Assembly: GCF_030268225.1 (NCBI RefSeq)
Contig: NZ_BSQG01000005.1
Span: 186,001-250,000, forward strand
DNA length: 64,000 bases
Source: Nocardiopsis ansamitocini
GTDB taxonomy: Bacteria; Actinomycetota; Actinomycetes; Streptosporangiales; Streptosporangiaceae
Reading direction: 5' to 3'
Positions 31,673-46,471 of the stretch are shown piece by piece. Both the position numbers and the translations under genes were made by a program. Under the pieces are notes generated by a model. The model worked only from the letters and a program-made list of their open reading frames with translations, ran no database searches and had not been told where the DNA came from. How positions within the stretch are numbered: position 1 is the first letter of the stretch; every line of letters begins with the position of its first letter.

Positions 31673-32899
31673 TCAGAGCGCTACACCCAGGAGGGTGTCG
31701 ACGATGTCGCGCAGCAGGGCCGGGGCTGCGGGGTCGCCGTGCGGCTCGGCCAGTGCTCTCCTCGCCCAGGTGTCGACGGCCAGCAGCGCCGCGGGCGAAT
31801 CGAGGTCGGCGGCAAGCGCCGCACGCACCTCGGCCAGCAGTGGAGCGGCGTCGGGTGCAGCGGGCAGGGCGGCGGCGGAACGCCAGAGCTCCAGGCGGGC
31901 ACGGGCTTCGTCCAGGGAGGTGTCGCCCCACTCCCAGGCGGTGCGGTAATGGTGTTCGAGCAGGGCCAGGCGTACCGCCATCGGGTCCACCCCGTCGGCG
32001 CGCAGCCGCGAGACGAAGACCAGGTTGCCCAACGACTTGGACATCTTCTCGCCGTCCAGGCCGACCATCGCCACGTGCACGTAGTTCTGCGCGTGCGGGG
32101 CGGTACCGGTCGCACAACGCGCCTCGGCCGCGCCCATCTCGTGATGGGGGAACACGAGGTCGTCGCCGCCGCCGTTGAGGTCGAAGGACATGCCGAGCTC
32201 GTGCAGGGAGATGGCGCTGCACTCGACGTGCCAGCCGGGACGGCCACGGCCGAGCGGGGTATCCCAGGCAGGCTCTCCGGGACGCTGGGCACGCCACAAC
32301 AGCCAGTCCAGGGGATCCTTCTTGCCGGGGCGCTGGGGGTCGCCGCCACGCTCGGCGAACAGGTGCAGCATCTGGTCGCGGTCCAGGCCGCTGACCGAGC
32401 CGAAGCCCTCGGAGGAGGCGGCGGAGAAGTAGATGTCACCGTCGAGTTCGTAGGCCGCGCCCCGTTCCCGCAGGCGGGCGACGAAATCGGCGATGAGGTC
32501 GATGGACTCGACGACTCCGACGTAGGCGCGCGGCGGCAGGATCCGCAGGGCCGTCATGTCCTCACGAAACACCTGGATCTCGCGTTCGGCCAGGGCCCGC
32601 CAGTCCTCGCCGGTGGCCGCGGCCCGTTCCAGGAGGGGGTCGTCGATGTCGGTCGTGTTCTGGACGTAGTCCACGTCATGGCCGGCATCGCGCCACACCC
32701 GGTTGAGCAGGTCGAAGACGAGGTAGGTGAAGGCGTGCCCCAGGTGTGCGGCATCGTAGGGGGTGATCCCGCAGACGTAGAGTCGCGCTGTACGGTCGGG
32801 GGTTGTCGTGCGCAGGGTGCCGGTGACGGTGTCGTGGACGCTGAGCGGCCCGCCGTTTCCGGGGAGGGCGACGGTTTCGGGCGCAGACCAAGAACGCAT
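31673..32899 (-). CDS. mshC: MshC, cysteine:GlcN-Ins ligase (mycothiol synthesis)
   Basis: 408 residues. It ligates L-cysteine to 1-D-myo-inosityl-2-amino-2-deoxy-glucopyranoside with ATP, the third enzymatic step of mycothiol synthesis in the cytosol. Derived from cysteinyl-tRNA synthetase: zinc ligand in [14 protein letters not shown]-like AHLGHA, zinc site WHVECS, and KMSKS in [10 protein letters not shown]. It lacks the tRNA-binding domain, consistent with length. The start is ATG 32899 (MRSWSAPE), the common family start; a TTG at 32905 is less likely. No good ribosome site is visible. The remaining mycothiol genes are not in this window. Confidence 0.95.
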
Positions 32900-33021
32900 G
32901 AGCAAGAGACTATCTGCCCGTCTGGGCGGAATCGGCCCAGCATGGCATCTGACCTAGGGAGACGAACGCCCCAGTCGTCGTGGGAATCGGATCGGGCGGC
33001 GGATGTGTTCGTGGGAGGCAC

Positions 33022-36911: not shown

Positions 36912-37661
36912 TCAGATCGGCGGCCAGGGGACGGCCGGCCAGTCCGGGGAGGGGTAGGGGTGCAGATCGTGCTCGCACAAGACCTCGACCCGCCGGCGGG
37001 TGGCGTAGCGTTCGGGCCCCGTCAGGTGTTGCTCCAGGGTCCGCGCGAGGTCGCTGTGGGGGGTGGTGAGCAGGGTGAGCAGGGAATTCAGCCGCTCCAG
37101 CGCTCCCTCGGGCAGGGATTCCCCGGCCCACTGCCACAGCACGGTGCGCAGTTTGTAGTCCTCGGCGAACGCGACCCCGTGGTCGCAGCCGTAGAGATGG
37201 CCGTCCGGGACCGGCAGCAGATGTCCGATCTTGCGGTCGGAATTGTTGATGACGGCGTCGAAAACGGCCATCCGGCGCAGCCCCGGATGGTCGAGGTCGC
37301 GGGCAAGCGCGATGAGGTCGACCGCCGGGTCGGGTTCGGTCCACAACTGCACCATCCCCGGCCCGTGCGGGCCGTCGCGGTACACCGTCGGCGGGACCAC
37401 CGCCCAGCCCAGCGCCTCCGACACCGCGTGCGCCGCGACCTCCCGGCCGGCAAGCGTGCCGTCGGGGAAGTCCCACAGCGGCCGCTCCCCCGCGACCGGT
37501 TTGTACACGCAGGCGGCACTGTCGAGGCCCGAGGAGACCTCGCAGTAGAGGGTGGTGTTGGAAGCGCCGGTCAACCGCCCGAGCACCTGGATGTGGCCGG
37601 CTCGGAGAAGCTCCAGAAAGTCGGCTGCGGTGCGGCGATCGGACGGCGACGACGCTGTCAT
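36912..37661 (-). CDS. SCO1664 family protein
   Basis: 249 residues. The pattern YCEVSSGLDSAACVYKPVAGERPLWDF (shown by its ends YCEVSSG and GERPLWDF) followed by AHAVSEALGWAVVPPTVYRD and FDAVINNSDRKIGHLL fits a HipA/PI3K-like kinase fold with a nucleotide-binding Lys (VYKP) and a catalytic-type N-N-S-D-R segment. It is known in streptomycetes as the SCO1664 family, function unknown. It lies directly before DUF3090 and a histidine phosphatase on the same strand, a cluster conserved in actinobacteria near mshC. I infer an ATP-dependent enzyme; the substrate is unknown. Confidence 0.85.
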   Translation of the reverse strand: MTASSPSDRRTAADFLELLRAGHIQVLGRLTGASNTTLYCEVSSGLDSAACVYKPVAGERPLWDFPDGTLAGREVAAHAVSEALGWAVVPPTVYRDGPHGPGMVQLWTEPDPAVDLIALARDLDHPGLRRMAVFDAVINNSDRKIGHLLPVPDGHLYGCDHGVAFAEDYKLRTVLWQWAGESLPEGALERLNSLLTLLTTPHSDLARTLEQHLTGPERYATRRRVEVLCEHDLHPYPSPDWPAVPWPPI

Positions 37662-37686
37662 GCGGCCCCCCGTTTTTCTTCGTGCC

Positions 37687-38265
37687 CTAGTTCAGCCCGA
37701 CAGGCTTGTACCCATTCTGGCGCGGACAGATGTGCCCCTCGGGGTCCAACGGTCCACCGCACAGGGGGCAGTTGGGACGCCCGGCTGCCACGACGCGCAG
37801 CGCCCGTCCGGCAAAAGCCCGCGCAAAGGCCGGCGTGAGGTAGACGCGGAGGACGTCGTGGGCGGTCTCGGTGTCGGCGAATGCCTCCACCTCTTCTTCC
37901 GTGGTGGGTTCCCCGCCCGATTCGACCTCGCGGATCTGCTGGGCCTCGATCACCACGCGCCTGGTGTCGGAGTCCCAGGCCAGAGCCATCGTGCCGACCC
38001 GGAAGTCCTCCTCGATCGGCTGCTCCAGCGGAGCATCGTCGCTTCCCGCCGTGGCGTCGAGGTCGGTGTCGTCGCCGAAGCGGCGCCGGACCTCGTCCAA
38101 GAGTTCCCCGACCCGTTCCGCAAGTGCAGTGACCTGCGCTTTCTCCAGGGCAACACTGGTGACACGGCCATCGCCGACGGCCTGGAGGAAGAAGGTGCGC
38201 TCCCCTGGCTGGCCGACGGTGCCGGCCACGAATCGTTCGGGCGGGTCGTACTGGAACACGGGCAT
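37687..38265 (-). CDS. DUF3090 family protein
   Basis: 192 residues. Family hallmarks are the start MPVFQYDPPERFVAGTVGQP, RTFFLQAVGDGRVTSVALEK, and the C-terminal zinc-finger-like CPLCGGPLDPEGHICPRQNG. ATG 38265 is the conserved start. The role is unknown, but the protein is always found with SCO1664-type and phosphoglycerate-mutase-like genes in actinobacteria, suggesting one pathway. The gap to the SCO1664-type gene is 25 bp, so they are likely co-transcribed. Confidence 0.9.
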   Translation of the reverse strand: MPVFQYDPPERFVAGTVGQPGERTFFLQAVGDGRVTSVALEKAQVTALAERVGELLDEVRRRFGDDTDLDATAGSDDAPLEQPIEEDFRVGTMALAWDSDTRRVVIEAQQIREVESGGEPTTEEEVEAFADTETAHDVLRVYLTPAFARAFAGRALRVVAAGRPNCPLCGGPLDPEGHICPRQNGYKPVGLN

Positions 38266-38354
38266 CGCTGAGGCTCCGGGAATGGTCTGCGCTGGCTGGG
38301 CATGGTGACGGCCCCGCGCGTGCGGGGACGGGAAACCGGCTGGGAACTGTTCTA

Positions 38355-39056
38355 TCAGCCTTCGCCTGCGCCTCCGCCGACCACTGCGTCGGTAGAGCCG
38401 GCCGCCCCACCGACCTGGAGTCCCGACAGGGACTCCCCGAGGTCGTTGAGGCGCAGCAGGAACGGGCGGAACGCGGTGTAACGCACCGCGCTGAGCGAGC
38501 ACGGGTCGGCGTTGAGGCGCTGAAACTGGTCCAGGTGCAGGCCGAGTGCGTCGGCGAGGATCGCCTTGATCACGTCACCGTGACTGCACACCAGGTAGAC
38601 CGGATGCTCCGTGTGCTCGGTGAGACGCGTGTTGTGGTCGCGTACCGCCGCGACCGCACGGTGGGCCGTCTCGGCCAGGCTCTCCCCGCCGGGGAAGCGC
38701 GCACCGCTGGGATGGGACTGCACGACCTGCCACAGCGGCTCATGGGCCAGCTCCGCCAGCGGACGTCCGGTCCACTCGCCGTAGTGGCACTCCCCGAAGC
38801 GCTCGTCGACGGTGATCGCGGGGGCGGCCTCGGCCGCGTCCGCGATCGCCTGGGCGGTCTCGCGGCAGCGCTCCAGCGGGCTGGACACGATCGCGTCGAA
38901 GCGGATCGGGGCCAGTCGCGCACCGACCCGGGCGGCCTGGGCGCGCCCGCGTTCGTCCAGGTGCACGCCCGGGGTCCATCCGGCGAGGGCGGAACCGGTG
39001 AGGGGGGTCAGTCCGTGCCGGACCAGCACCAGGGTCGCGGTTCGCGTGCCGCTCAC
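38355..39056 (-). CDS. Histidine phosphatase family protein (MSMEG_4193-like)
   Basis: 233 residues, phosphoglycerate-mutase-like fold. Catalytic RHG is in LVLVRHGLTPLTG, the second Arg in SSPLERCRETAQAI, Glu in DERFGECHYGEWTGR, and the second His in VCSHGDVIKAILAD. The C-terminus ends in a Gly/Ala-rich tail. It starts at GTG 39056, overlapping the stop of the upstream membrane gene in GTGA, so translation is probably coupled. Part of the DUF3090/SCO1664 cluster. Phosphatase activity is likely; the substrate is unknown. Confidence 0.9.
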   Translation of the reverse strand: MSGTRTATLVLVRHGLTPLTGSALAGWTPGVHLDERGRAQAARVGARLAPIRFDAIVSSPLERCRETAQAIADAAEAAPAITVDERFGECHYGEWTGRPLAELAHEPLWQVVQSHPSGARFPGGESLAETAHRAVAAVRDHNTRLTEHTEHPVYLVCSHGDVIKAILADALGLHLDQFQRLNADPCSLSAVRYTAFRPFLLRLNDLGESLSGLQVGGAAGSTDAVVGGGAGEG

Positions 39057-39649
39057 TGGCCCGGGACCTCGTCGCCGGCTCGCGGACGGTCGGGATCGGT
39101 GAGACCGTTCCAGAGGTAGGAGGTGGCCCCTCGGGATTCGAGGCGCTCGCGGTACTCCTCGATGGTGGACCTGGTGGGCAGCGCGACCATGGCCATACCC
39201 AGCAGGGAGATGACCGCCCCGGCCAGGAGCGGGGTGAGGCTCATCTCGCCCAGGAACGCCCCGACCAGACCGAGCATCACAGCGGCCTCGCACAACGCGA
39301 GGCGGACCAGGGTCGTGGAGTTGGCCCTGAGGACCGCCTGATGCCCAGCGGCCCCCGGGGTGAGGTCCGTGTCCAGGGGCGCCGGCCGGAGCAGGAACGC
39401 CGCGGCCACCGCGCCCAGCCCGACGGCCGGAAGCGCGATGGCGATCGGGGTGAAGGCGAACTCCACCCCGATGACGACGACCATGACCCCGGTGATCAGC
39501 GGGATCACACCCGCCATGGCCACGGAGAGCAGGCGAAGGACCGACAACGGCGTGGCACTGCCGCCCAACGAGGCGAGGAAACCGGGGTCCGCCTCGCTCC
39601 CCAAGGGGGAGGCCCATCGCCGGGAGGCGCGATCGTGTGGGGTGCTCAT
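39053..39649 (-). CDS. Membrane protein of unknown function upstream of histidine phosphatase
   Basis: 198 residues with hydrophobic segments around residues 34-62, 63-85, 108-130 and 133-152 (for example VAMAGVIPLITGVMVVVIGV, IALPAVGLGAVAAAFLL, LLAGAVISLLGMAMVAL). I do not recognise a named family. The start ATG 39649 has no ribosome site; TATATGGT just upstream may be a -10 for a leaderless message. The stop overlaps the next gene by 4 bp (GTGA). Co-expression with the phosphatase is therefore likely. Confidence 0.7.
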   Translation of the reverse strand: MSTPHDRASRRWASPLGSEADPGFLASLGGSATPLSVLRLLSVAMAGVIPLITGVMVVVIGVEFAFTPIAIALPAVGLGAVAAAFLLRPAPLDTDLTPGAAGHQAVLRANSTTLVRLALCEAAVMLGLVGAFLGEMSLTPLLAGAVISLLGMAMVALPTRSTIEEYRERLESRGATSYLWNGLTDPDRPRAGDEVPGQ

Positions 39650-39712
39650 CACCAGACCATATAAGCAGGCGGGCCGGGGAAACACCCCTGTCCCGGGACG
39701 TCCCCGCCCCGG

Positions 39713-40609
39713 TCAGGAATCCGCGGGGACGGCGGTCTCGGTGCCCTGCTCCTGGACGGTGACCTCTCCCGACGAGGCATCCGCTCCCGACTCCGGGGTG
39801 AGCACCCCGAAGCTGACGAGGGTCAGGATGAGCACGCCGAGCACGATGCGGTAGTAGACGAAGGGCATGAAGCTGTTGGTGGAGATGAACCGCATGAACC
39901 AGGCGATGACCGCGTAGCCCACCACGAAGGCGACCACGGTGCCCACGATGGTGGCACCGACTCCGGCGTATTCGTCACCGCCGATGTCCTTGAGCTTGTA
40001 GACCCCCGAGGCGAAGACCGCGGGCATCGCGAGCAGGAAGGCGTACCGGGCCGCGGCCTCGCGCTTGAAGCCCAGCAGCATCCCGCCGGTGACGGTGGCT
40101 CCGGAACGGGAGACGCCCGGGACCAGGGCGAGCATCTGGAAGAGGCCGAAGACGACGCCGCGCTGGGCGGTGAGGTCGGTGAGCTCGCGGTGCTTGCGGG
40201 AGTAACGGTCCACGATGCCCAGCAGCACGCCGAAGACGATGAGGGTCAGGGCGATGAGGCGCAGGTCGCGGAAGGGTTCGGCGATCTGCTCCTCGAACAG
40301 CAGCCCGGCGATGGCGATGGGCAGGCTGCCCAGGATGACGTACCAGCCCATACGGGCATTGATGTCGCGCCGGAGTTCCTTGACGACCAGAGAACGGCAC
40401 CAGGTGCTGATGATGTTCCAGACGTCTTTGCGGAAATAGATCAGCACCGCGAGTTCGGTACCGATCTGGCTGACCGCGGTGAACGCCGCACCCGGGTCGG
40501 GCCATCCGGAGAAGGCCGCGACGATGCGCAGGTGGCCGCTGGAGGAGATCGGCAGGAACTCGGTCAGTCCCTGGACAAGCCCAAGGACGATGGCCTCGAT
40601 GATGGACAC
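39713..40609 (-). CDS. uppP: Undecaprenyl-diphosphatase UppP
   Basis: 298 residues, polytopic. It dephosphorylates undecaprenyl pyrophosphate to recycle the lipid carrier for peptidoglycan and gives bacitracin resistance when overexpressed. Motifs: LGLVQGLTEFLPISSSGHLR with the conserved Glu and Ser, and LALVPGVSRSGATVTGGMLL with the catalytic Arg. A Glu/Thr-rich tail of about 20 residues extends past the last helix. GTG 40609 (VSIIEAIVLG) matches the usual start; AGGAG is 11 bases upstream. Divergent from the aldo/keto reductase, with 243 bp between. Confidence 0.94.
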   Translation of the reverse strand: MSIIEAIVLGLVQGLTEFLPISSSGHLRIVAAFSGWPDPGAAFTAVSQIGTELAVLIYFRKDVWNIISTWCRSLVVKELRRDINARMGWYVILGSLPIAIAGLLFEEQIAEPFRDLRLIALTLIVFGVLLGIVDRYSRKHRELTDLTAQRGVVFGLFQMLALVPGVSRSGATVTGGMLLGFKREAAARYAFLLAMPAVFASGVYKLKDIGGDEYAGVGATIVGTVVAFVVGYAVIAWFMRFISTNSFMPFVYYRIVLGVLILTLVSFGVLTPESGADASSGEVTVQEQGTETAVPADS

Positions 40610-40852
40610 GGCTGGTTCGGCTCCTGGAGATATGGACACTGCCACGCGGGTGCCGCGGGAGGAGTGGGTGGGAAGACCCCGGCAGCTTACTCCGTCCGCC
40701 CCTCGGCGCCCCGACCCGCGAATTCGGGCGCGGACGGACGGTGAACGAGTGGTGAAGCGCGCCGGTCGCCCGAACGGCGGCGCGGGGGCCGCATGGGGGT
40801 CGTACCGCACGTCGAGCTGTGCCGACGCACGCGAAGCGGTACTCTCCGCGCC

Positions 40853-41812
40853 ATGGAACAGCGACAGGTGGGCGGGTCTGGCCTGTGGGTCTCCCGGGTC
40901 GCCCTGGGGACGATGACCTGGGGCAAAGACACCGAGGAGGAAGAGGCGGGCGATCAGCTCGCCGCGTTCGTGGACGCGGGCGGCACGTTGATCGACACGG
41001 CCGACATCTACACCGGCGGCCACAGCGAACGCATTGTGGGCCGCCTGCTCCGCACGGTAGTGCGTCGCGACGATGTGATAATCGCCACTAAGGTGGGGCA
41101 CACTCCGGACCGCCAACGCCCGTGTGATACCTCCCGGCGCCACCTCATGGCCTCCTTGGAGGCTTCACTGCGCCGGATGCAGGTCGAGCACGTGGACCTG
41201 TGGCAGTTGCACGTGCACGACCCAGACACCCCGGTCGAGGAGACGTTGTCGGCGGTGGACGCGGCCGTCGCCTCGGGCAAGGTCCGCTACGTCGGGGTGG
41301 GCGACGTGGCCGCATGGCAGCTGGCCAAGTACGCCACGTGGCAGGCGGCCGGCCGCGACCAGGGGCGTTCCCCCATCATCTCGGTCGGCACGGAGTACTC
41401 GCTGCTCAACCGCCGCTGCGAGAGCCGGCTGTTGGACGCGGCCACCGACTCCAGGGTCGGGATGATCGCCTGGGGCCCGCTGGGGCGCGGTGTGCTGACC
41501 GCCAAATACCGCAACGGGGTGCCCAGCGACTCCCGCGGAGCGTTGCCGCACATGGCGCCCTACGTCGAGCCTTACCTGGACGAGCACAGCAGACGCGTCG
41601 TGGAGTCGGTGTGCACCGCTGCCGACGGCCTGGGTGTCTCTCCGCTGGCGGTCGCGCTCAGTTGGGTCCGCGACCAGCCGCACGTGGCCACCGCGACCGT
41701 GGGCCCGCGCACCGCGACCCAACTGGGCGAGATCTTGGCGGCCGAGACGGTGACACTGCCCCGAGAGATTCGTGAGGCCCTGACCGACGCATCGGCCGCG
41801 ACCGCCCACTGA
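40853..41812 (+). CDS. Aldo/keto reductase
   Basis: 319 residues, NADPH-dependent TIM-barrel reductase. Catalytic residues are seen as Asp/Tyr in DTADIYTGGHSER and Lys in IIATKVGHTPDR; His is in WQLHVHDPDTP. The NADPH-binding C-terminus is present as HVATATVGPRTATQLGEILA. It resembles the general YghZ/potassium channel beta-type aldo/keto reductases. Start ATG 40853; the frame is open further upstream but without a ribosome site. Single gene, divergent from uppP. Confidence 0.9.
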   Translation: MEQRQVGGSGLWVSRVALGTMTWGKDTEEEEAGDQLAAFVDAGGTLIDTADIYTGGHSERIVGRLLRTVVRRDDVIIATKVGHTPDRQRPCDTSRRHLMASLEASLRRMQVEHVDLWQLHVHDPDTPVEETLSAVDAAVASGKVRYVGVGDVAAWQLAKYATWQAAGRDQGRSPIISVGTEYSLLNRRCESRLLDAATDSRVGMIAWGPLGRGVLTAKYRNGVPSDSRGALPHMAPYVEPYLDEHSRRVVESVCTAADGLGVSPLAVALSWVRDQPHVATATVGPRTATQLGEILAAETVTLPREIREALTDASAATAH

Positions 41813-42030: not shown

Positions 42031-43827
42031 ATGTCCGACGCCAGCACACCAGTGAGGTCTGTTCCCGTGGTCGACCCGTCATCGCCGCCCCCGCCCGCCG
42101 CAGCGGACGACGCCGCCGAAGGCACCCGGCAGGTGCTGGCACGGATGGGCGCCCCCGCGGAACTGGCGCCGCGCCTGGTGGCCGTGTTCGGACCCACTGC
42201 GGCCCACGAGCTCACCGCCGACCCCTGGCGCCTGCTGGAGCTGCCCGCGGTCACCGTGCAGCAGGCGGACTTCTGCGCGCGGACGCTGCTGGGTGACGCC
42301 GCACACCCCGACGACCCCCGGCGCGGCCGCGCACTGGTGGCCCATCTGCTGCGTCGCGCAGCGCGCAGCGGGCACACCGCCCTGGCCGAGGCCCGGGTGG
42401 CCGGCGCCCTGCGCGACCAGCAGGTGCGCTCGGTCGACGCGGCCATGAGCGCAGCGACCGACGGGCCGCACGTGCAGCTCGTCGAAGTGTTCCCCGACTC
42501 CGCCGACGACGACGAGTTCGGCGAGGATTCCCCCGAGATGCCCGATGCCGAACGCTTTCTGGCGTTGGACGGACTGGGCCTGGCCGAACAGCAGCTGGGC
42601 GAGGGCCTGCTGCGGCTCATCAGTGCAGAACCGATCATGGACTCGGCAACGGCCGTGGAGACCGTGCAGGCCGCGGCTGCCTCGCTCGACCGGGAGCTGC
42701 TGCCCGAGACGGCCGCGGCAATGGTCACCGTCGCGTTGCGGGGCGTGAGCGTGCTCGTGCACGGGGCGGGCTCGCACGCGACCATCGCCGACGCCGTGCG
42801 CTACGCCTCGGCGATCGCGGAGGAGAGCCAGGTCGGCCTGGTGGTGGCAGCGCCGACCGCATCCGGTGCCGCCGCGTTGAACCTCAGGCTGGCGGACTCC
42901 GCGGTACGGGCGGGCACGGTGGCCGGACTCCTGGACGCGGGTGGTCCCGGAGAAGCGGGGCTCGTGGTCCTCACCGACGCCACCGCCCTGGACACCGAGA
43001 CGGCCGCGGCGCTGGTGGCGGCCTGCGGCGACGATACCCACTTGGTGCTGGTGGCCGACCCCGGGCTGCTCCCCTCGGTGGGGCCCGGACAGTTGGTCGA
43101 CGACCTGATCACCTCACGGGTGGCGGCCGTGGCCGTGCTGCCGGGCGACCCGGCTCCGGGCCCGCAGGTGCTCCTGGCCGCGGAGGTCGCCGACGGCCGG
43201 TTCGACCCCACTGACGTCCACGCTCCCGATCGCGAGGTCGTGGTCGTCCCGGCGGCCTCCGCGGGTGAGGCCGCGCACCGCGCGGTCCAGCTGATCACCG
43301 ATGCCGTTCCGCGTGCGTTCGGGATCGCCGCCGAGCACGTCCAGATCATCACGGCCGAGCGCACCGGGGAGGCCGGCTCGGACGCCGTCAACGCCGCGTG
43401 CAAGGCGCACTTCAATCCCGGCCCCGGCGCGGTGGCCGGTCTGGACCCCGGCGACCGGGTCCTGCTCGCCGGAAGCGGGCCCGGGTACCTCCCCGGTGAC
43501 GCAGGCGTGCTGGGTGCGGTGGGCGAGAAAGGCGCCGCGGTGGAACTGGTCGACGGACGTACCGTCACCGTCTCGGTGCCGGCCCACTTGCGGCCGGGCT
43601 GGGCGATCACCGTCCCCGCCGCGCAGGGCGGGACCTGGCCCGCAGCGATCCTGGTCTACGGTCCCGACGCCCCTGTGTCGCGTGCGCAGTTCTACACCGC
43701 GCTCACCAGGGGGGAGAGCCACGTCTGTGTGGTGACCGCCAACGCTCCCGCGCTGTCGGGGGCGGTGCGCGACGCGACCGCCCCCGAACGACACACCCGG
43801 CTGGTGCAGATCCTGCGCGAGAGCTGA
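42031..43827 (+). CDS. RecD2/TraA-like helicase homologue with inactivated Walker motifs
   Basis: 598 residues with the layout of RecD2-type helicases: an N-terminal helix-hairpin-helix region (residues ~25-90; VLARMGAPAELAPRLVAVFG, ADPWRLLELPAVTVQQAD), a central RecA-like domain, an SH3-like insert (~490-530; LDPGDRVLLAGSGPGYLPGD), and a C-terminal UvrD_C-like motif RAQFYTALTRGESHVCVV (~551-568). The Walker A position, residues 244-251, reads HGAGSHAT where family members have GGPGTGKT, so the catalytic Lys is missing; the Walker B position reads VVLTDAT (about 312-318) rather than VVVDEAS. It is therefore probably not an ATPase and may act as a scaffold or DNA-binding protein. The frame is intact, so it is not a pseudogene. 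Confidence 0.75.
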   Translation: MSDASTPVRSVPVVDPSSPPPPAAADDAAEGTRQVLARMGAPAELAPRLVAVFGPTAAHELTADPWRLLELPAVTVQQADFCARTLLGDAAHPDDPRRGRALVAHLLRRAARSGHTALAEARVAGALRDQQVRSVDAAMSAATDGPHVQLVEVFPDSADDDEFGEDSPEMPDAERFLALDGLGLAEQQLGEGLLRLISAEPIMDSATAVETVQAAAASLDRELLPETAAAMVTVALRGVSVLVHGAGSHATIADAVRYASAIAEESQVGLVVAAPTASGAAALNLRLADSAVRAGTVAGLLDAGGPGEAGLVVLTDATALDTETAAALVAACGDDTHLVLVADPGLLPSVGPGQLVDDLITSRVAAVAVLPGDPAPGPQVLLAAEVADGRFDPTDVHAPDREVVVVPAASAGEAAHRAVQLITDAVPRAFGIAAEHVQIITAERTGEAGSDAVNAACKAHFNPGPGAVAGLDPGDRVLLAGSGPGYLPGDAGVLGAVGEKGAAVELVDGRTVTVSVPAHLRPGWAITVPAAQGGTWPAAILVYGPDAPVSRAQFYTALTRGESHVCVVTANAPALSGAVRDATAPERHTRLVQILRES

Positions 43828-43845: not shown

Positions 43846-44607
43846 TCACACACGGTCCAGGAAACCGCCGTCCACGACCAGGTTGGTCCCGGTGATGTAC
43901 TCGGCCGCCGGCGAGCCCAGGAACACCACGGCACGGGCGACGTCCTCGGCCGTGCCGAGGCGACCGCTGGGGATACGGGAGCGGATGCCGGCATAGAAGT
44001 CGGGGTCGGTCTCCCGACGCCGGGCCCAGCCGCCTCCCTCGAACTCGGTGGGCCCCGGGGAGACGGTGTTGACGCGCACCCCTCGGGCAGGGAGCGTGCG
44101 GGCCAGACCGGCCGCGTAGTGGTTGAGTGCTGCCTTGAGCGGGCCGTACGCCTTCGGTCCGGACGGAGCGGAGGTGTGCAGCGCCGAGGTGCTGGAGATC
44201 AGTACCACCGAGCCGCCCCGGGCGGAGGCCGCCAGGTGCTCCTCGGCCTCGTCCACGAGGTGGACGAAGGGCATGAGGTCGGTACTGAAATTCCGTTGCC
44301 ACTGGTCGGGAGACGCACTGCTGCCGGCGGAGACGTTGGATACCACGATGTCGATTCCACCCAGTTCATGGGCCGCGCGGGCGACGAAGGCGCGCAGGGC
44401 CGCCTCGTCGGTGACGTCCAGCGCCTGATCCACGACCGTGGCACCCGTGCCGCGCAGTTGCCCGGCCGCCTCGGTGAGCGGCTCCGGGGAGCGCGCACAG
44501 ATCGCGAGGTCGGCGCCTTCGTCGGCGAAGGTCTGGGCGATGGCACGGCCGATGCCGCGACTGGCGCCGGTGACCACGACCCTTGCTCCGTCGAGTCCCA
44601 AGTCCAT
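43846..44607 (-). CDS. SDR-family oxidoreductase
   Basis: 253 residues, classical short-chain dehydrogenase. Cofactor loop TGASRGIGRAIAQ, NNAG-equivalent VSNVSAGSS, catalytic Ser in LISSTSALHTS, and Tyr-x3-Lys in AYGPLKAALN. The C-terminal VAFLGSPAAEYITG-like segment reads VVFLGSPAAEYITGTNLVVD. It lies downstream of fabI on the same strand, but a strong hairpin (44646-44683) separates them, so it may have its own promoter. Substrate not identifiable. Confidence 0.9.
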   Translation of the reverse strand: MDLGLDGARVVVTGASRGIGRAIAQTFADEGADLAICARSPEPLTEAAGQLRGTGATVVDQALDVTDEAALRAFVARAAHELGGIDIVVSNVSAGSSASPDQWQRNFSTDLMPFVHLVDEAEEHLAASARGGSVVLISSTSALHTSAPSGPKAYGPLKAALNHYAAGLARTLPARGVRVNTVSPGPTEFEGGGWARRRETDPDFYAGIRSRIPSGRLGTAEDVARAVVFLGSPAAEYITGTNLVVDGGFLDRV

Positions 44608-44645
44608 TGTCGTCTCCCTCTGTCGGTGACCGTGGGTCAGGCAAA

Positions 44646-44683
44646 GGCCGCGGGTACCCGAGTGGTGGCGGGTACCCGCGGCC
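44646..44683 (-). terminator. Terminator after fabI
   Basis: GGCCGCGGGTACCC (44646-44659) and GGGTACCCGCGGCC (44670-44683) form a perfect 14-bp stem; the minus-strand tail reads TTTGCC. It follows the fabI stop by 16 bases. Confidence 0.75.
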
Positions 44684-44698
44684 GGGTGGTGCTGGACA

Positions 44699-45463
44699 CT
44701 ACGCGCCGGTGGAGTGGAACCCTCCGTCGACGTGCACGATCTCGCCGGTGGTGGCCGGGAACCAGTCCGAGAGCAGCGCGACGACGGCGCGGGCGGCGGG
44801 CTCGGGGTCGGTGGTGTCCCAGCCCAGCGGGGCGCGCTCGGGCCACGCCGAGGCCAGCTGGTCGAAGCCGGGGATGCTGCGGGCGGCCATGGTGCTCAGC
44901 GGGCCCGCGGAGACCAGGTTGACCCGGATGTTCTGCTCGCCGAGGTAGCGGGCCAGGTAGCGCGCGGTGGAGGTGAGGCCGGACTTGGCCACGCCCATCC
45001 AGTCGTAGATCGGGTAGGAGACGCTGTTGTCGAAGTCCAGCGCCACCACCGAGCCACCGTCCTTCATCAGCGGCAGCACCGCGGTGGTGAGGGACTTCAG
45101 CGAGAAGGTCGAGGTGTGGATGGCCGTGGCGACGTCCTCCCACTTGGTGTTGAGGAAGTTGCCGCCCAACGCGTCCTGGGGGGTGAAGCCGATGGAGTGC
45201 ACGACGCCGTCGAGGCCGTCCACGTGCTCGGCGATACGTCCGGCGAGGCTTTCCAGGTGGCCCTCGTCGGTCACGTCGAGTTCCAGCACGGGGGGCGTGT
45301 CGGGCAGCCGTTGGGCGATGCGGTTGACCAGGCTGAGCCGACCGTATCCGGTGAGCACGACCGTGGCGCCCTGCTCCTGGCAGAGCTTGGCCACGTGGAA
45401 GGCGATCGAGGAGTCGGTGAGCACCCCGGTGACCAGGATGCGCTTTCCTTCAAGAATTCCCAT
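44699..45463 (-). CDS. fabI: Enoyl-ACP reductase FabI (InhA-like)
   Basis: 254 residues. NADH-dependent reduction of the enoyl-ACP double bond in the last step of each fatty acid elongation round. The cofactor loop is TGVLTDSSIAFHVAKLCQEQ, and the catalytic Tyr-x6-Lys is YDWMGVAK in SYPIYDWMGVAKSGL. HSIGF and GPLSTMAAR (the flexible substrate loop) are present. Like mycobacterial mabA-inhA it follows fabG on the same strand, 69 bp downstream. It is the target type of isoniazid and triclosan in other bacteria. Confidence 0.95.
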   Translation of the reverse strand: MGILEGKRILVTGVLTDSSIAFHVAKLCQEQGATVVLTGYGRLSLVNRIAQRLPDTPPVLELDVTDEGHLESLAGRIAEHVDGLDGVVHSIGFTPQDALGGNFLNTKWEDVATAIHTSTFSLKSLTTAVLPLMKDGGSVVALDFDNSVSYPIYDWMGVAKSGLTSTARYLARYLGEQNIRVNLVSAGPLSTMAARSIPGFDQLASAWPERAPLGWDTTDPEPAARAVVALLSDWFPATTGEIVHVDGGFHSTGA

Positions 45464-45532
45464 TGGCGGTTTTTGTCCTTGTTCGATAGTTGCCGTGCGG
45501 AATCAGGGGCGGCCGAAGCCGACGGGGGGCGC

Positions 45533-46471
<939 letters not shown>

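Follow-up and report, generated by a model that had tools for sequence, protein, structure and literature searches.

The window, a 64,000-nucleotide stretch of Nocardiopsis ansamitocini DNA, encodes at positions 42031–43827 of the plus strand a RecD2-like protein in which both Walker motifs have been destroyed while the frame remains open over 598 codons. On balance, we consider it probable that this protein is the Walker-less orthologue of a distinct family of short, actinobacterial RecD2-like helicases present at a fixed locus, and that it serves as an ATP-independent adaptor or regulator which docks via its 2A domain. Judged from its sequence, the protein would work as a pseudo-enzyme, that is, without ATPase activity. 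The open frame and the two altered motifs were the starting point of a preliminary description of this DNA and both are as reported there: HGAGSHAT occupies residues 244–251 and VVLTDAT occupies residues 312–318.

The true start of the gene is probably GTG 42067 (42067–42069) rather than ATG 42031, which shortens the product from 598 to 586 codons. This start is likely because the context AGTGAGG...GTGGTCGAYCC, in which AGTGAGG (42051–42057, plus strand) is the putative ribosome-binding site, is kept in relatives (L043, L147 and L211), and because the frame of L043 begins only 2 codons ahead of the conserved GTG. A scan around the gene for sigma-70-type promoters and terminators, which is weakly informative in GC-rich DNA, returned none. 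An artefact of annotation or frameshifting was ruled out by the open frame, the codon-level constraint and the confident fold, which are described below.

By sequence comparison, the protein is related to RecD2 well beyond chance. It matches the RecD2 model TIGR01448 with an E-value of 5.5e-38 and 130.6 bits, relative to a cut-off of 500 bits, and scores above the Pfam cut-offs for HHH_RecD2 (PF14490), AAA_30 and UvrD_C_2. Proceeding from the N-terminus, the helical HHH_RecD2 domain (residues 33–116; 42127–42378, on the plus strand as are all features of the gene) is retained, with the invariant residues D95, R97, R98, G114 and T116. The former Walker A motif (42760–42783) has lost its lysine; its intact counterpart, previously given as GGPGTGKT, is GGPGTGKS in the family and GGPGCGKS in true RecD2. 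Former motif Ia reads AAPTASGAAAL (273–283; 42847–42879) as against AAPTGRAAKRL, with both Arg and Lys lost, and the former Walker B motif (42964–42984) stands in place of VVVDETS. A remnant of motif III, VADPGLLPSVG, is found at residues 341–351 (43051–43083), and the L(Y/H)RQ loop of motif IV is gone. Within the UvrD_C_2 region (523–568; 43597–43734), motif V has lost its His and Arg (VPAAQGGTW as against VHRAQGSEW), and the C-terminal, motif VI-like sequence YTALTRG is kept, as had been noted.

Two other elements said to be kept stand only in part. For the HhH, the helical HHH_RecD2 domain is there, but the real N-terminal (HhH)2 of the intact relatives is missing. For the SH3-like domain, a search of the window protein for Pfam SH3_13 finds nothing with the threshold set as loosely as E≤1, but strands at residues 476–527 of the AlphaFold model are consistent with a degraded domain of this type. 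The OB fold is absent from the window protein by Pfam and the N-terminal tandem HhH by Pfam and a family HMM; the genome's own true RecD2, L031, carries both at its N-terminus. The protein is strongly acidic, with a net charge of about −32 over three regions (−15 in HHH_RecD2, −14 in domain 1A and about −3 in 2A/2B) and 2 lysines in total; acidity is likewise a feature of the intact short family, where it is weaker in 1A. The conserved residues Trp524, Arg551 and Arg587 are still present. Pfam identifies no nuclease-type domain in the protein and the neighbouring genes are not recombination genes; there is no relaxase either, as the single 598-residue frame carries only RecD2-type domains.

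The AlphaFold models have pLDDT values of 93.6 for the window protein and 89.0 for the Actinomadura protein L071. The nearest solved structure found using Foldseek is RecD2 3gp8 (E 1.4e-30, TM 0.67/0.72), and the SF1B arrangement of 1A, 2A and 2B is retained in the model of the window protein. There are 235 positions that are ≥93% conserved in intact members, and 80 of these are kept in all three Walker-less groups. The best conserved stretch common to intact and Walker-less members is a block in domain 2A spanning residues 402–476 (43234–43458), where the mean frequency of the top residue is 0.76, compared to 0.50–0.71 elsewhere. Its conserved residues are R417, Q420, D424, P427, R428, N454, K458, N462-P463-G464, D472 and G474-D475-R476, and many conserved residues of the block are family-specific, being different in RecD2. 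In the model, a helix spans residues 411–430, and the spacing of R417, Q420, D424 and R428 would place them on one face of it.

The family was assembled by first searching 60 relatives, followed by a scan of the genome collection, searches by family and class and targeted fetches, which gave 171 distinct members in one alignment. The search of the 60 relatives yielded two sets: positional orthologues with ~40–65% identity and true RecD2 proteins with ~27–33%. Within the alignment, the Walker A Lys and the Walker B DE occur together in 66 members and are both missing from 105, and 0 members have one of the two. The Walker-less members come from all sampled genera of the Nocardiopsidaceae (Thermobifida fusca included), from Actinomadura, Thermomonospora and Actinocorallia, and from the Streptomycetales, where every copy read is of this type (Streptomyces, Kitasatospora and two families besides Streptomycetaceae). 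Intact members are found in the Geodermatophilaceae, Frankiales MAGs, Nakamurella, a Micromonosporaceae-like family (f19), some other families and also in three genera within the window's own GTDB family. We infer the assignments of f20/g56 to Streptomyces and of f19 as Micromonosporaceae-like. A match at E≤1e-20 is present in 118 of 119 Streptomycetales genomes (117 of the 118 of good quality), a count in which only part of the matches were read for Walker state and, in a few genomes, the best match may be the true RecD2. The window genome itself has one Walker-less positional orthologue and one true RecD2 (L031, 841 bits), with no second, intact copy of the short family, and in many genera of the window's GTDB family only the true RecD2 was found. 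As the same Walker loss recurs in the Streptomyces and Nocardiopsis orthologues, the comparison that had been proposed as a check, the loss is ancient. Recent decay in one strain is ruled out, all close relatives being without Walker motifs as well.

The loss extends beyond the Walker motifs. The Arg/Lys of motif Ia, the motif IV loop and the His/Arg of motif V are mostly gone in Walker-less members, of which 72 of 105 still have the Arg of motif VI. In place of Walker A and B there are lineage-specific motifs: HTGGEA/LVVLDAPQ in Streptomyces and HGxG/EAMx in Nocardiopsidaceae. Intact members have an N-terminal tandem HhH with GxGxxxA hairpins which precedes HHH_RecD2. An (HhH)2 model trained on half of the intact members detected the domain in 42 of the 43 that had been held out; among 131 Walker-less members it detected 0, whichever frame of the loci was read, from which it follows that the motor and the DNA-binding HhH were lost together. 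A six-frame search of the loci also eliminated the possibility that (HhH)2 had split off as a separate, upstream ORF. The intact short family (for example L067, L010 and L199) is separate from the true RecD2 present in many of the same genomes, and apparently constitutes an undescribed RecD2-like helicase with (HhH)2 in Actinomycetes; a literature search returned no functional paper on it.

The Walker-less protein is kept by purifying selection. The NG86 dN/dS is 0.37 in Nocardiopsidaceae, 0.34 in Actinomadura and 0.30 in Streptomyces. Saturation was handled using disjoint close pairs, which give 0.36, 0.33 and 0.26, respectively, and by neutral simulations with the same GC-rich bias, in which dN/dS is about 1.03. 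The values for intact sets and RecD2 are 0.20–0.33, or 0.20–0.23 in the comparison with the disjoint pairs, so that the Walker-less lineages are somewhat higher. The preliminary description had proposed that the protein was retained by selection after loss of the ATPase, and this is borne out by a loss common to every close relative together with a dN/dS of ~0.3. In Walker-less lineages, selection is more relaxed on domain 1A, which bears the Walker sites, than on 2A/2B: the median 1A to 2A/2B ratio is 1.35 in Walker-less pairs versus 0.85 in others (p=0.002, treating pairs as independent), the exceptions being Streptomyces alone (0.97) and four Micromonosporaceae-like intact pairs (1.68). Frameshifted copies of the pseudo-helicase occur in three sampled genomes (L238, L239 and L240, in G312, G321 and G021), and may represent decay or assembly errors. 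The G021 genome is a single contig, and the frame is open in its congener, G099.

Intact and Walker-less forms occupy the same locus across orders. This locus is defined by mshC, SCO1664, TIGR03847, MSMEG_4193, uppP and an aldo/keto reductase (AKR) gene. In the window, the mycothiol ligase gene mshC (TIGR03447) lies at 31673–32905 on the minus strand. It is followed, also on the minus strand, by the SCO1664-family gene (TIGR03843; 36912–37661), the gene for the conserved actinobacterial protein TIGR03847 (37687–38502), that for a putative MSMEG_4193-family phosphomutase (TIGR03848; 38355–39617) and an ORF for the undecaprenyl-diphosphatase UppP (TIGR00753; 39713–41143). The order is generally SCO1664 family, TIGR03847 and MSMEG_4193, often uppP, usually the AKR gene on the same strand, then the helicase; here, the AKR gene is at 40793–41812 on the plus strand. 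Intact forms reside at this locus in Geodermatophilaceae, the Micromonosporaceae-like family, Frankiales and three genera of the window's GTDB family. Downstream of the pseudo-helicase, on the minus strand (43846–46378), a FabI/InhA-type enoyl-ACP reductase gene (44699–45463; NF005908 above cut-off) is flanked by an SDR gene on either side. Within the window's GTDB family, this arrangement accompanies intact and Walker-less copies alike, and no SDR/FabI genes were seen downstream in the Streptomyces, Geodermatophilaceae and Micromonosporaceae-like loci examined.

How often the motor was lost depends on which tree is consulted. In the protein's own tree, with motif columns removed, all Walker-less members form one clade (99/99), although a constraint that unites the dead and intact copies from the window's GTDB family is not rejected by the AU test (p=0.095). 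The tree of five neighbouring genes requires three state changes and rejects a single Walker-less clade (AU p=0.009); it does not reject two origins, one in Streptomyces and one in the window's family (p=0.105). Because the neighbour-gene tree rejects a single Walker-less origin, at least two losses are implied, and our reading is that long-branch attraction affects the protein tree. The contrary history, which concerns only the number of events, is a single ancestral loss: the Walker-less members would truly form one clade, and intact copies within the window's GTDB family would have arisen as paralogues or by replacement in place. We regard this as rather doubtful. It accounts directly for the 99/99 grouping, and the constraint keeping the window's family together, tolerated as it is by the protein tree, has been counted with it. 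However, fast-evolving dead copies can attract each other in trees, and dead and intact copies in the window's GTDB family have the same neighbours on both sides, SDR/FabI genes included, which argues for vertical descent in place. Taken with repeated loss, the data raise a tentative possibility: that the helicase was converted at least two times, at the same chromosomal site, from an intact form to one without the motor and the HhH pair, leaving no surviving intermediates. Such conversion would imply a second role that is independent of both ATP and DNA.

The constraint remaining at residues 402–476 suggests docking through the 2A domain. In the mechanism we propose, the ancestral, intact helicase would have doubled as a docking subunit through 2A. 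The Streptomycetales and several Streptosporangiales lineages lost the N-terminal tandem HhH along with the whole motor (Walker A/B and motifs Ia, IV and V); the motor would have become dispensable, and the docking role would be what selection retained. The present-day protein would act on a partner protein as a rigid adaptor or regulator that needs no ATP. Several observations weigh against this. The conserved, polar face of 2A may instead pack inside the protein, against residues such as D95/R97/R98 or E186/R195; no partner was found and the neighbouring genes may be neighbours only; and the gene is dispensable because frameshifted copies exist in three genomes and many genera of the window's GTDB family have only the true RecD2.

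The preliminary description had instead seen in the protein a retained DNA-binding scaffold, that is, a dead helicase that still holds ssDNA or fork DNA, as PriA and TraI do, or reads sequence, as AddB/RecC does for Chi. The precedents are strong, HHH_RecD2 and the RecD2-like fold are retained, and Trp524, Arg551 and Arg587 are conserved. However, most Walker-less members have lost the Arg/Lys and His/Arg of motifs Ia and V, through which SF1 helicases touch ssDNA, the tandem HhH is missing from all 131, and the charge of −15, −14 and about −3 over HHH_RecD2, 1A and 2A/2B, with 2 Lys in the protein, counts against it too. We consider a DNA-binding scaffold unlikely, and this part of the description was not upheld. 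Improbable to a greater degree is a slow relic, in which weak selection lets a dispensable gene decay and its presence is owed to long survival times and not to function. Decay of this sort would fit the frameshifted copies in G021, G312 and G321, the many genera within the window's GTDB family that lack the gene, a dN/dS somewhat above that of intact sets and the loss of all motor motifs. It is difficult to square with a dN/dS of about 0.3 relative to the neutral 1.03, with near-universal presence and an open frame in Streptomycetales, with new, lineage-specific motifs conserved at the former Walker A/B sites and with a confident fold in two dead lineages. A ligand-sensing switch, in which the altered P-loop binds a nucleotide or another ligand without hydrolysis, has the least to recommend it and we think it very improbable: the model still shows the strand-loop-helix at 239–266, and each lineage conserves its own replacement loop, but there is no Lys, no Ser/Thr pair and no Asp-Glu, and the loops are unrelated and of differing lengths between lineages, which argues against one kept ligand.

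Relative to known systems, the window protein shares with RecD2 (TIGR01448; PDB 3gp8/3gpl/3e1s) the same fold and domain order from HHH_RecD2 to UvrD_C_2, but is without the OB fold, tandem HhH, Walker A/B and motifs Ia, IV and V, and falls below the 500-bit cut-off. The intact short family is orthologous, having the same locus and the same family-specific 2A residues, but unlike the window protein has (HhH)2, GGPGTGKS, DE and all SF1B motifs. The view that pseudo-helicases are little described is fair, although several are known. In Deinococcus radiodurans PriA, Walker A/B are degraded while DNA binding and DnaB contact are kept (PMC4504706). Like the window protein, it is an orthologue of a bacterial chromosomal helicase, with Walker A/B degraded clade-wide and the protein retained; it belongs to another helicase family, and the window family lost the HhH pair too, seemingly more than once. 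The vestigial helicase domain of F/R1 TraI has a RecD2-like fold without Walker A/B and functions in ssDNA binding and as a translocation signal (PMC3912908, PMC5422253). This domain lies inside a relaxase beside an active helicase, whereas the window protein is stand-alone and chromosomal, in a genome without an active copy of the short family, and its sequence argues against ssDNA binding. In AddB/RecC, an SF1 helicase fold without motor motifs has been co-opted for another role (PMC4824097), but these proteins are UvrD-like and fused or bound to nuclease-helicase complexes.

The family described here has the two attributes of a pseudo-helicase: descent from a putatively active helicase family, indicated by the intact-motif orthologues at the same locus, and clade-wide loss of the catalytic motifs with the protein kept under selection. 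As far as literature searches show, a stand-alone RecD2-type pseudo-helicase that is near-universal in Streptomyces, has lost HhH with the motor and has intact, same-locus orthologues is new. Bacterial pseudo-helicases are rarely documented and this one is widespread in a model group, being present in nearly all Streptomyces. With intact, same-locus orthologues in sister lineages and seemingly repeated loss of the motor, it offers a natural experiment that could reveal which function of a RecD2-like helicase is separable from ATP hydrolysis, and provides a first lead on the role of the short actinobacterial RecD2 family. If the repeated conversion is true, the helicase always had a second, ATP- and DNA-independent role, needed in nearly all Streptomyces, beside mshC and the SCO1664/TIGR03847/MSMEG_4193 group. 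To call the Walker-less proteins “RecD-like helicase” or “AAA family ATPase” would be to misname them.

The genes at 36912–41143, namely the SCO1664 family, TIGR03847 and MSMEG_4193, which have putative roles only, and uppP, are highly conserved in actinobacteria, lie near mshC and accompany the helicase in different orders. According to a review (PMC4255298), the linkage of SCO1664 to mshC is invariable and the two may belong to the same network. A link between the pseudo-helicase and mycothiol or chromosome partition is a lead only. The literature search for RecD2 with Streptomyces returned only general papers and that for SCO1664 this one review; no literature was found on SCO1670-1672 of S. 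coelicolor, tags whose assignment is a guess based on gene order.

Among the more distant Walker-less members are L027 (G047, family f10) and L252–L258 (families f48 and f49), each with their own loop sequences. The host of L027 is uncertain, given its very long branch and the 6% contamination of the genome that carries it. L074 (NYMS01000063.1) bears the label Glycomyces fuscus TRM 49117, but only tiny branches part its orthologue from the sister sequence of Nocardiopsis alborubida, and it is probably a mislabelled Nocardiopsis. In the window, the ORFs at 37687–38502, 38355–39617 and 39713–41143 overlap each other and the AKR gene; their true starts are internal, given that residues 82, 195 and about 180 are the first to match the respective families, with the TIGR03848 match at residues 195–397 and the TIGR00753 match at 184–436. 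In Actinomadura L071, the AKR gene overlaps the pseudo-helicase gene by 4 bases.
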